This document shows positions 2,532-5,591 of a DNA stretch of 64,000 nucleotides, piece by piece (positions within the stretch are counted from its first letter, which is position 1; each line of letters starts with the position of its first letter). Position numbers and translations under genes: made by a program. The notes beneath the pieces were generated by a model. That model had not been told where the DNA came from. It made no database searches and saw only the letters and a program-made list of their open reading frames with translations. Source of the stretch: Desulfarculus baarsii DSM 2075 (GTDB lineage Bacteria; Desulfobacterota; Desulfarculia; Desulfarculales; Desulfarculaceae); NCBI RefSeq assembly GCF_000143965.1, contig NC_014365.1, forward strand, positions 895,501 to 959,500. Direction: 5' to 3'.

Positions 2532-2614
2532 CCCCAGAAAACGGGCTGGCGGCGCGGAGGCGCGCCCCACGCCGCCGCCATCGAGGCGCACAACAATTCC
2601 GGGGAGCACCGATC

Positions 2615-3145
2615 ATGAACGATTTGGAACGGATCAAAAGGGCCAGCCGCCGGCTGAAGTCTTTTTGCACGGCGCTTTTGTTTTTCATCCCCCTGGCCGT
2701 GGCGGTGGGCTGGACGTTCTGGGACAAGACGCCCCTGACCCAGCTCAACCTGCCGGTGGCCCCCAATCCCGAGCATCCGGCCATCGTCTTCGTGCTGGGC
2801 TTCATGATCAGCATGATTCCGGCGGGGGTGATGATGTACGCCGTGCAACGCATGGGGCGGCTGTTCGACCTCTACGCCCGGGGGATCATCTTCGGCCAGC
2901 AGAACGTGGCCTGCTATCGGTCGTTGGGCTGGGCGGTCATCGCCTGGGTGGCGGCCGACTTCATCAGCCAGCCCCTGCACGGCCTGGTGCTGACCTGGTT
3001 CAACCCGGCGGGCCAGCGGCTGCTGATCCTGGGGATCAACTCCAACATGCTCATGGGCCTGTTCAGCGGCGCGGCGGTGCTGACGGTGGCCTGGGTCATG
3101 GACGAGGCCCGCAAGATCGAGGAAGACCAGGCGCTGATCATCTAG
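2615..3145 (+). CDS. DUF2975-family integral membrane protein
   Basis: 176 aa when started at ATG 2615, which has GGGGAG 8 bases upstream; the in-frame ATG at 2513 lies inside the promoter and is rejected. Four hydrophobic segments are visible, near residues 16-35, 55-78, 100-122 and 136-160, giving a small four-helix inner-membrane protein. The layout and the downstream Xre regulator (20 bases after the stop) match the DUF2975-YozG pairing known from Bacillus and other bacteria, where the biochemical role is unknown. Residues 80-95 (RMGRLFDLYARGIIFG) correspond to the cytosolic loop typical of DUF2975. Confidence 0.72.
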   Translation: MNDLERIKRASRRLKSFCTALLFFIPLAVAVGWTFWDKTPLTQLNLPVAPNPEHPAIVFVLGFMISMIPAGVMMYAVQRMGRLFDLYARGIIFGQQNVACYRSLGWAVIAWVAADFISQPLHGLVLTWFNPAGQRLLILGINSNMLMGLFSGAAVLTVAWVMDEARKIEEDQALII

Positions 3146-3165
3146 CGCAAAGGCCGGAGGCGAGC

Positions 3166-3372
3166 ATGACGATTGTCATAAACCTGGACGTGGCCCTGGC
3201 GCGGCGCAAGATGAAATCCAAGGACTTGGCCGAGCGCGTGGGCATAACCGAACAAAACCTTTCACTGATCAAGACCGGCAAGGTCAAGGGCGTGCGCCTG
3301 GCCACCCTGGACGCCATCTGCCGCGAGCTGAACTGCCAACCCGGCGACATCCTGGCCTATCAGCCCGATTGA
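3166..3372 (+). CDS. small Xre/YozG-family helix-turn-helix regulator
   Basis: 68 aa protein starting at ATG 3166 with GGAGG 5 bases upstream. It is almost entirely one HTH_26/Xre domain: ARRKMKSKDLAERVGITEQN is the first half of the HTH and LSLIKTGKVKGVRLATLDAI the recognition helix and following helix. The C-terminus (CRELNCQPGDILAY) is the hallmark ending of YozG-like regulators. It lies directly behind the DUF2975 membrane protein and is probably co-transcribed with it, suggesting a local regulator or a membrane-protein-controlled repressor. Target unknown; the inverted repeat at 2469 is a candidate. Confidence 0.85.
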   Translation: MTIVINLDVALARRKMKSKDLAERVGITEQNLSLIKTGKVKGVRLATLDAICRELNCQPGDILAYQPD

Positions 3373-3378
3373 GCCGCC

Positions 3379-3411
3379 CGCCCCGCCGGAAAACTCTTCT
3401 CCGGCGGGGCG
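3379..3411 (+). terminator. rho-independent terminator after Xre gene
   Basis: Perfect 12-base stem (CGCCCCGCCGGA / TCCGGCGGGGCG) with a 9-base loop, 6 bases after the regulator stop, followed by the weak T-containing tail ATTTATATT. Confidence 0.7.
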
Positions 3412-3493: not shown

Positions 3494-4492
3494 ATGCGCG
3501 ACATCCGGCGAAATCGTATTATTTTGCTGGGCCTGGCCTGGCTTGTGCTTTTGCCTGGCACGGCGGCGGCCGCCCAGGCCCCGGCCGCCAGCGCCGACGA
3601 TGGCCAGGCGGTGGTCTGGAGCGTGGACGCCAAAGTCAAACGCCTGTTCGACAGCTACACATCCTACGAATTCGGCAACCCCGATCCGCCCTATCAAGAG
3701 CCGCTGAGCCGCCTGGAGTTCGCCCTGGATTCGTGGTGGGCCGGGGTGGAGATCACCCGCTGGACGCCGCGTTGGTCAGTGGGCTTGCAGATCATGCGCA
3801 ACCTCACCGACAAGGTCGATGGCGTCATGGCCGACTCCGACTGGCTCGACCCCGATCACACCAAGGTGCGCACGGTCTATTCCGAGAGCGACGTGCGTCT
3901 CAAGCCCTGCTATGACGTGCGGGCCTGGGCCGATGTCTCGCTGGCCCCCTGGCTGCCCCTGCCGGCCGGGCTGGATCTGCGGCCGGTGGGCGGCCTGCGC
4001 TGGCAGCGCCTGGACATGATCGCCTTCAATCTGCGGCAGTGGGAGATCCTCCCCAGCGACTATGTCTATTTCTATGGCTATCCCGGCGACAGCATCCGCT
4101 TTCGGCAGATCTATTGGCAGTGGTTCATCGGCCTGAAGCTGGACTGGCGGCCCCTGCCCACGGACTACCCCGGCCTGCGCCTGAGCTTGCAGGGCGACTG
4201 GGCCTACGTGCGCGGCGAAAACAAAGACCAGCACCTGCTGCGCGAGGGCAACCGCATCACCGAGGAAAGCACCAGCGGCCAGGCCTGGCGCGCCGCCCTG
4301 GGCCTGGAAGTGCCGCTGGGCCATAACTTTTCGCTGGAGCTGGAGGCCGAATACCTGACCATCGACACCACCGGCAGCCATCATTTCACCAACAACGTCG
4401 ATCCCTACACCGTTGACGAGACCTGGGACAACGGCGTGCGCGTCTGGTCCCAGCAGTGCAGCGTGATGCTCGCGCTGCGCTACAGCTTCTAG
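3494..4492 (+). CDS. omptin-family outer-membrane aspartyl protease, copy 1
   Basis: 332 aa from ATG 3494, preceded by GGGGGAGG (3481-3488); an upstream in-frame ATG at 3440 has no such site. The signal peptide is residues 1-27 (ILLGLAWLVLLPGTAAAAQA). The protein aligns by eye with OmpT/Pla: VDGVMADSDW carries the Asp pair (D114, D116; OmpT D83/D85), and NKDQH carries the Asp-His pair (D245, H247; OmpT D210/H212). The following GNRITEES matches the OmpT GKRIT segment. The C-terminus LALRYSF ends in Phe with alternating hydrophobics, as expected for BAM-inserted beta-barrels. Omptins cleave surface substrates, often between basic residues, and need LPS. An equal-length paralogue follows. Confidence 0.85.
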   Translation: MRDIRRNRIILLGLAWLVLLPGTAAAAQAPAASADDGQAVVWSVDAKVKRLFDSYTSYEFGNPDPPYQEPLSRLEFALDSWWAGVEITRWTPRWSVGLQIMRNLTDKVDGVMADSDWLDPDHTKVRTVYSESDVRLKPCYDVRAWADVSLAPWLPLPAGLDLRPVGGLRWQRLDMIAFNLRQWEILPSDYVYFYGYPGDSIRFRQIYWQWFIGLKLDWRPLPTDYPGLRLSLQGDWAYVRGENKDQHLLREGNRITEESTSGQAWRAALGLEVPLGHNFSLELEAEYLTIDTTGSHHFTNNVDPYTVDETWDNGVRVWSQQCSVMLALRYSF

Positions 4493-4521
4493 GGCCTTGA
4501 CGCGCCCGAAAAAGGCTCCGC

Positions 4522-4564
4522 GCCACGGGGGCGGTTTTGCCCCATGCCCGGCCCCGTGGCTTTT
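4522..4564 (+). terminator. probable terminator between the omptin genes
   Basis: GCCACGGGG (4522-4530) pairs with CCCCGTGGC (4552-4560), followed immediately by TTTT. The loop is long (21 bases) but can form an inner G/C hairpin. It suggests that the two protease genes are at least partly independent transcripts. Confidence 0.5.
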
Positions 4565-4592
4565 GACCAACACGTGACGGAAAGCTCGGACG

Positions 4593-5591
4593 ATGCCAGA
4601 CCTTAAACTCGGCTCCATGCTCTGCCTGGCCCTGGCCTGGCTGGCGCTTTTGCCCACCCCGGCGGCGGCCGCCCAGGCCCCGGCCCAGGCCGCGAATGCC
4701 GGCGATGGCCCGGCGGCGGTCTGGCTGGTGGAGGCCAAGGTCAAGCGCCTGTTCGACAGCCACACATCCTATGAATTCGGCAACCCGTTCCCGCCCTACC
4801 AAGAGCCGCTCAGCCGCCTGGAGTTCGACCTGGATTCGTGGTGGGGCGGCGTGGAGATCAGCCGGCGCGCGGCCCTGTGGTCGCTTAGCCTGGAGATCAT
4901 GCGCAATCTCACCGCCAAGGTCGACGGCGTCATGGCCGACTCCGACTGGACCGACGAAGAGAGCACCAAGGTGCGCACGATCTATTCCGAGTCGTGCCTG
5001 GACATGAAGCCCAGCTACGCCGTGCGCGCCGAGGCCGATTTTTCGCTGGCCCCCTGGCTGGGCCTGCCGGCCTGGCTGGACCTGCGGCCGGTGGGCGGCC
5101 TGCGCTGGCAGCGCCTGGACCTGATGGCCCACGACGGAACCCAATGGGCGCTTGAGTCCGACGGCTCGTGGCCGGCGATGGCCCTGCCCGGCGACGGCCT
5201 GCGCTTCAAGCAGACATATTGGCAATATTTCATCGGCCTGAAGCTGGACTGGCGGCCCCTGCCCGCGCGCCACCCCGGCCTGCGCCTGGGCTTGCGGGGC
5301 GATTGGGCCTATGTCGACGCCCACAACCTGGACCACCATCTGCTGCGCGAGGGCAACCGCCTCACCGAGGAAAAGACCCGTGGCCAGGCCTGGCGCGCCG
5401 CCCTGGATCTGGAGGCCCCGCTTGGCGGCAATTTCTTTCTGGACCTCGAACTCGACTATCTGACCATCGAAACCACCGGCAATCATCGGCTTTACAACGA
5501 CGCCATCGGTCTGGACTTCATCGTCAACAACGGCGTGCGCGTCTGGTCCCAGCAGTGCGGCGTGATGCTTTCGCTACGCTATGATTTCTGA
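4593..5591 (+). CDS. omptin-family outer-membrane aspartyl protease, copy 2
   Basis: 332 aa paralogue of the preceding gene. The signal peptide is residues 1-27 (CLALAWLALLPTPAAAAQA). Catalytic positions are kept: VMADSDW gives D116 and D118, and NLDHH gives D247 and H249 (OmpT D83/D85 and D210/H212). The barrel ends in LSLRYDF. The Shine-Dalgarno is weak (GGA 2-5 bases upstream), unlike copy 1. The loop after W119 is more acidic (TDEEST) and residues 181-200 differ strongly from copy 1, so cleavage specificity may differ. Its end overlaps the first in-frame ATG of the next gene. Both copies look active rather than one being decayed. Confidence 0.85.
   Translation: MPDLKLGSMLCLALAWLALLPTPAAAAQAPAQAANAGDGPAAVWLVEAKVKRLFDSHTSYEFGNPFPPYQEPLSRLEFDLDSWWGGVEISRRAALWSLSLEIMRNLTAKVDGVMADSDWTDEESTKVRTIYSESCLDMKPSYAVRAEADFSLAPWLGLPAWLDLRPVGGLRWQRLDLMAHDGTQWALESDGSWPAMALPGDGLRFKQTYWQYFIGLKLDWRPLPARHPGLRLGLRGDWAYVDAHNLDHHLLREGNRLTEEKTRGQAWRAALDLEAPLGGNFFLDLELDYLTIETTGNHRLYNDAIGLDFIVNNGVRVWSQQCGVMLSLRYDF

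Follow-up and report, generated by a model that had tools for sequence, protein, structure and literature searches.

Do the two adjacent open reading frames near the start of the window (the whole stretch of 64,000 nucleotides of Desulfarculus baarsii DSM 2075 that was analysed) encode omptin proteases, do they cut like the omptins known so far, and why are there two of them? In the literature, omptins are enzymes of animal and plant pathogens, which cleave at dibasic sites and need LPS. Our search found no publication joining omptins with Deltaproteobacteria or environmental bacteria. We consider it fairly probable that the pair are active, divergent omptin-fold proteases with a non-dibasic preference, duplicated in tandem and, with less confidence, at work in processing or shedding surface or secreted proteins.

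The two tandem frames of 332 aa each, on which the initial annotation was based, were recovered at the same positions (Table 1). Their products are 67–68% identical (68% by BLASTP). VMADSDW is common to both, and D-x-H occurs as NKDQH in A and as NLDHH in B, confirming that the OmpT-type catalytic residues noticed by eye are intact in each. The N-terminus of copy A is Sec-type as judged by eye, and its C-terminal residue is Phe. No third family match was present in the genome (3,655,731 bases, single contig, of which the window is 895501–959500). Upstream, window positions 2597–3369 hold a DUF2975 membrane protein, then a small Cro/C1-type HTH gene, and a strong hairpin separates both from the pair. 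This hairpin is possibly a terminator, with a weak U tract; it was absent from the calls of the terminator scan, which was near background over the locus. The promoter scan of the locus gave no match, and in the spacer between the copies the hairpins were no better than those of shuffled sequences.

Table 1 Features of the tandem pair and its upstream region, in window coordinates.
Feature	Position	Strand	Basis
Copy A, omptin-fold outer-membrane protease (predicted), 332 aa	3494..4492	+	PF01278 27.3 bits
Copy B, omptin-fold outer-membrane protease (predicted), 332 aa	4593..5591	+	PF01278 31.4 bits; modelled fold
Copy A D114-S-D116-W117, equivalent to OmpT D83/D85/W86	3833..3844	+	alignment
Copy A D245-Q-H247, equivalent to OmpT D210/H212; Asn243 just before, equivalent to OmpT D208	4226..4234	+	alignment
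Copy B D116-S-D118-W119, extracellular end of strand 3	4938..4949	+	alignment, model
Copy B D247-H-H249, extracellular end of strand 7	5331..5339	+	alignment, model
Copy B Asn245, equivalent to OmpT D208	5325-5327	+	alignment
12-bp GC-rich hairpin between upstream HTH gene and copy A	3379..3411	+	-28.5 kcal/mol, z -4.9

Both copies scored above the gathering cut-off of the PF01278 Omptin profile (22.6 bits), the check proposed with the initial annotation, and NCBIfam gave a name to neither. Copies A and B were aligned with 57 relatives from genome contigs (alignment A2, 59 sequences). These relatives were picked by the conserved peptide patterns SHTSY and SWW, the catalytic motifs not being part of the selection, and PF01278 matched 51 of the 59 sequences. 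Searched against the PDB, the A2 profile gave five significant matches, every one an omptin: pOmpT (E 3.6e-9), two Pla sequences (2e-6), OmpT (3.3e-6) and a further Pla (2.9e-5). The 59-sequence profile was required for this significance; an eleven-sequence profile found only OmpT, at E 0.25, and phmmer with copy B alone found no PDB match at E up to 1. In the resulting alignment DSDW lies on DxDW and NxDxH on DNDEH. This sets D116/D118 (copy B numbers) on OmpT D83/D85 and D247/H249 on D210/H212, so that all four catalytic residues of OmpT are matched in the pair. The Pla catalytic pairs, D84/D86/D206/H208, are likewise the same.

The AlphaFold model of copy B, computed on the 59-sequence alignment (pLDDT 90, pTM 0.83), had ten strands when split strands were counted once. 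D116/D118 close strand 3 and D247/H249 close strand 7, as in omptins. The best 11 Foldseek matches of the model were OmpT or Pla (E 7e-18 to 4e-12), and VIA-align gave Z scores of 27–31 for these two proteins. For example, the ten-strand barrel of E. coli K-12 OmpT (PDB 1i78) was matched with Z 30.5 over 278 residues at 2.1 Å, and Yersinia pestis Pla (PDB 2x4m, 2x55) with Z 28–30 and an rmsd of 1.8 Å. The modelling suggested at the outset thus returned an omptin barrel with the tetrad at the correct strand ends in copy B. From the alignment register and the 2 Å superposition on OmpT/Pla, the four residues would meet at the barrel mouth. Copy A, given its identity to the modelled copy, is expected to form the same ten-strand barrel.

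After the omptins, the next folds in the structure search were OpcA, at a Z of 19, and a Legionella Dot/Icm-associated porin. This resemblance, and the ability of omptins to act also as adhesins (PMC7696990), would fit catalytically dead barrels serving as adhesins or channels, like OpcA. We regard such a function as very improbable. The Z score of OpcA is far below that of OmpT, and D116, D118, W119, D247 and H249 are invariant in 59/59 A2 sequences, as are G254, R256 and T258 (copy B numbers), a pattern hard to explain without catalysis. In all profile-found loci, the tetrad columns differ only by gaps in fragments and one X. Such invariance across 59 divergent sequences argues against a dead barrel; the tetrad in 31 further Desulfobacterota sequences was not counted as evidence, because the motif was part of their selection. 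Active proteases are the reading we prefer. In the outer-membrane barrels, the D116/D118 pair would face the D247/H249 pair at the outer mouth, and the tetrad would activate a water molecule for peptide cleavage at the cell surface, as in OmpT and Pla.

The same fold and tetrad could also belong to ordinary omptins, which cleave at dibasic sites and either shield the cell against cationic antimicrobial peptides or break down foreign proteins. The dibasic preference of OmpT is set by Glu27 and Asp208 (S1) and Asp97 (S1') (PMC11410778). At the Asp208 position, both copies and all other clade members have Asn (59/59), in a gap-free stretch beside the catalytic pair. Asp occupies this column in OmpT, in Pla and in four near-classical Desulfobacterota omptins (L106–L109). 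Among 31 intermediate sequences, 17 have Asp too, and most of the remaining 14 belong to the Asn clade. The Asp97 position corresponds to Thr129 (MAFFT) or Ile/Val130 (profile alignment), and no acidic residue occurs at 126–132 of copy B or in the matching stretch of copy A. The Glu27 column is an invariant Tyr60 by MAFFT, also when reached via the intermediate group, and Glu61 in a direct, low-confidence alignment. Tyr60 is probably the equivalent, the register being ambiguous with respect to Glu61, which might replace Glu27 if ordinary omptins were at hand. Ser132 lies on OmpT Ser99 in one alignment and one position off in another, and OmpT His101 is kept in neither.

With respect to LPS, the position of the contact residue Arg175 is Ile or Thr in the pair, and the Lys226 contact is absent as well. 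The Arg138 contact falls on Arg in copies A and B, yet in only 30 of the 59 sequences. LpxC is encoded in the genome, so lipid A is probably made.

Together, the Asn at position 208 throughout the clade, the missing acid near the Asp97 position in both copies and the Ile or Thr at Arg175 make ordinary omptins distinctly unlikely. For the preferred reading, the Asp208 to Asn exchange, a non-acidic Asp97 site and a probable Tyr at Glu27 mean that the dibasic preference has most likely been lost, at least part of the pocket behind it being gone. Specificity would then probably have changed to a non-dibasic one, as read from the aligned residues and most firmly from Asp208. The pair is 16% identical to OmpT and 17–18% to Pla, and for known omptins 45–80% similarity (PMC11410778) and over 50% identity (PMC3048539) are quoted. 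This low identity, against some 40–50% or more among classical omptins, and the departures at the S1 and LPS sites place the pair inside the PF01278 fold family and outside the classical omptin group. The original assignment to omptin-type proteases is thus upheld for homology, barrel fold and tetrad topology, but not in the sense of a classical, dibasic-cutting omptin.

Omptins had been taken as essentially a family of gammaproteobacterial pathogens, which is contradicted by PF01278 matches in 35 of 395 sampled Desulfobacterota genomes. The present clade (>150 bits) was found in 20 of the 395. Its relatives are common in environmental Desulfobacterota, and some occur in Methylococcaceae, Comamonadaceae and Planctomycetota. 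Named relatives are from Desulfarculus, Desulfocarbo and Dethiosulfatarculus, and also from Syntrophus, Smithella, Geobacter, Methylobacter, Curvibacter, Rhodoferax and Planctomycetota bins, for which the bin taxonomy may err. The near-classical omptins L106–L109, all from one Desulfobacterota family, share phylum, Pfam family and tetrad with the pair. They score 211–224 bits, in contrast to 27–31 bits for the pair, and keep Glu27, Ser99, His101 and the Asp208 that the pair has lost. Another set of omptin-like proteins from Desulfobacterota (L095–L104, L110, L112, L114, L117, L129, L130 and L135) has Asp at OmpT 208 (one has Asn) and mostly Tyr at the Glu27 column. This second group is possibly intermediate between the classical omptins and the present clade.

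Tandem pairs, for which a copy-number survey of relatives had been suggested, were seen only in Desulfarculaceae loci: in this genome, in L055 with L059, and in L056. In the tree, the L055/L059 duplication predates the split of those two, the L056 copies are each other's closest relatives (97/91), and the pair analysed here stands apart from them. These three placements indicate that tandem pairs arose at least three times in Desulfarculaceae. Dethiosulfatarculus grouped with copy A (93/87). The dS between copies A and B is 0.41, compared with 2.2–2.5 to Dethiosulfatarculus, which suggests to us that, despite this fork, the duplication that gave A and B is later than the Dethiosulfatarculus split, or that the copies have been homogenised since. 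The window pair is probably lineage-specific, and gene conversion between A and B is possible. Additional copies were found outside tandem pairs. The L056 bin (see L056, L070) has a third copy, truncated by the contig end, and dispersed copies number four in genome G161 and two or three in G362.

Tandem duplication recurs in the family and may simply be frequent. The second copy could then be redundant, a duplication for dosage with unchanged substrates, which is compatible with either protease reading. Loops L1 (10/11 identical residues) and L4 (6/6) are nearly identical between A and B, as redundancy would have it, whereas loops L3 and L5 have zero identical residues and part of L2 differs (7/11 identical). 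The divergent external loops of the initial annotation are thus real for L3, L5 and part of L2, and not for L1 and L4. In the extracellular half, 62% of the residues are identical between the copies, compared with 76% in the rest of the protein (Fisher p 0.016); the boundaries of this half were drawn by us from the copy B model. The omega between the paralogs is 0.83 in the extracellular half and 0.38 elsewhere (bootstrap 0.975), by a Nei–Gojobori estimate that is crude in GC-rich DNA. With the outer parts differing in this way, redundancy appears somewhat unlikely to us. Faster outer divergence is consistent with two substrate ranges, and the omega values lend indirect support to the earlier idea of two cleavage specificities. 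For diverged proteases, a lineage-specific tandem duplication would have been followed by change mainly on the outer half, giving each copy a substrate range of its own.

Which proteins the pair may cut was approached through gene neighbours. No conserved operon was found across relatives, the neighbours within 6 kb being different. Only one neighbour cluster recurred (18 loci), a large group built by chaining, whose example member resembles a sensor kinase. Directly upstream of the protease gene, L023 and L071 encode a 1.2–1.3 kaa subtilase with a proprotein-convertase P-domain and an autotransporter barrel (L023:2174-5917, L071:2059-5880). In L064, an autotransporter barrel (L064:3-1115) is encoded ~0.9 kb upstream of the protease gene. 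A subtilase adjoins the protease gene in L035, and a protein with a two-partner-secretion domain in L045. Neither this pair nor most relatives had an autotransporter neighbour. Elsewhere in this genome there are five strong autotransporters and no subtilase. Autotransporters were present in 10 of 20 clade-positive genomes and in 80 of 375 others (Fisher p 0.006, ignoring phylogeny).

The cleavage of IcsA by IcsP offers an established precedent (PMC3723647). By analogy with Shigella IcsP/SopA and its autotransporter substrate IcsA, we tentatively propose, as the most likely role, that the pair process surface proteins of the cell that makes them, autotransporters for example; two relatives sit directly behind an autotransporter, whereas the pair itself has no such neighbour. 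The pair would then process or shed proteins that the cell displays or secretes, and protection from cationic peptides would be the less likely job; the defence or nutrient role of the initial annotation is conjectural.

A sizeable environmental branch that keeps the tetrad and lacks both Asp208 and Arg175 would uncouple the catalytic core of omptins from dibasic specificity and from the need for LPS. It suggests an infection-independent role, and provides natural omptin-fold proteases of different specificity to study. A more far-reaching version, which we put forward as a speculation and judge unlikely as a whole, is that of a distinct environmental branch of wide distribution, whose S1 pocket is neutral and which lacks the classical LPS switch. 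Its members would mature or shed their own autotransporters and exoproteins, and the Desulfarculaceae would have duplicated them repeatedly for different substrate ranges.

Thirteen of the 59 A2 sequences were also matched by PF17251, Pom (Protochlamydia outer membrane protein), which may point to a connection of omptin-fold barrels with the porins of chlamydiae.
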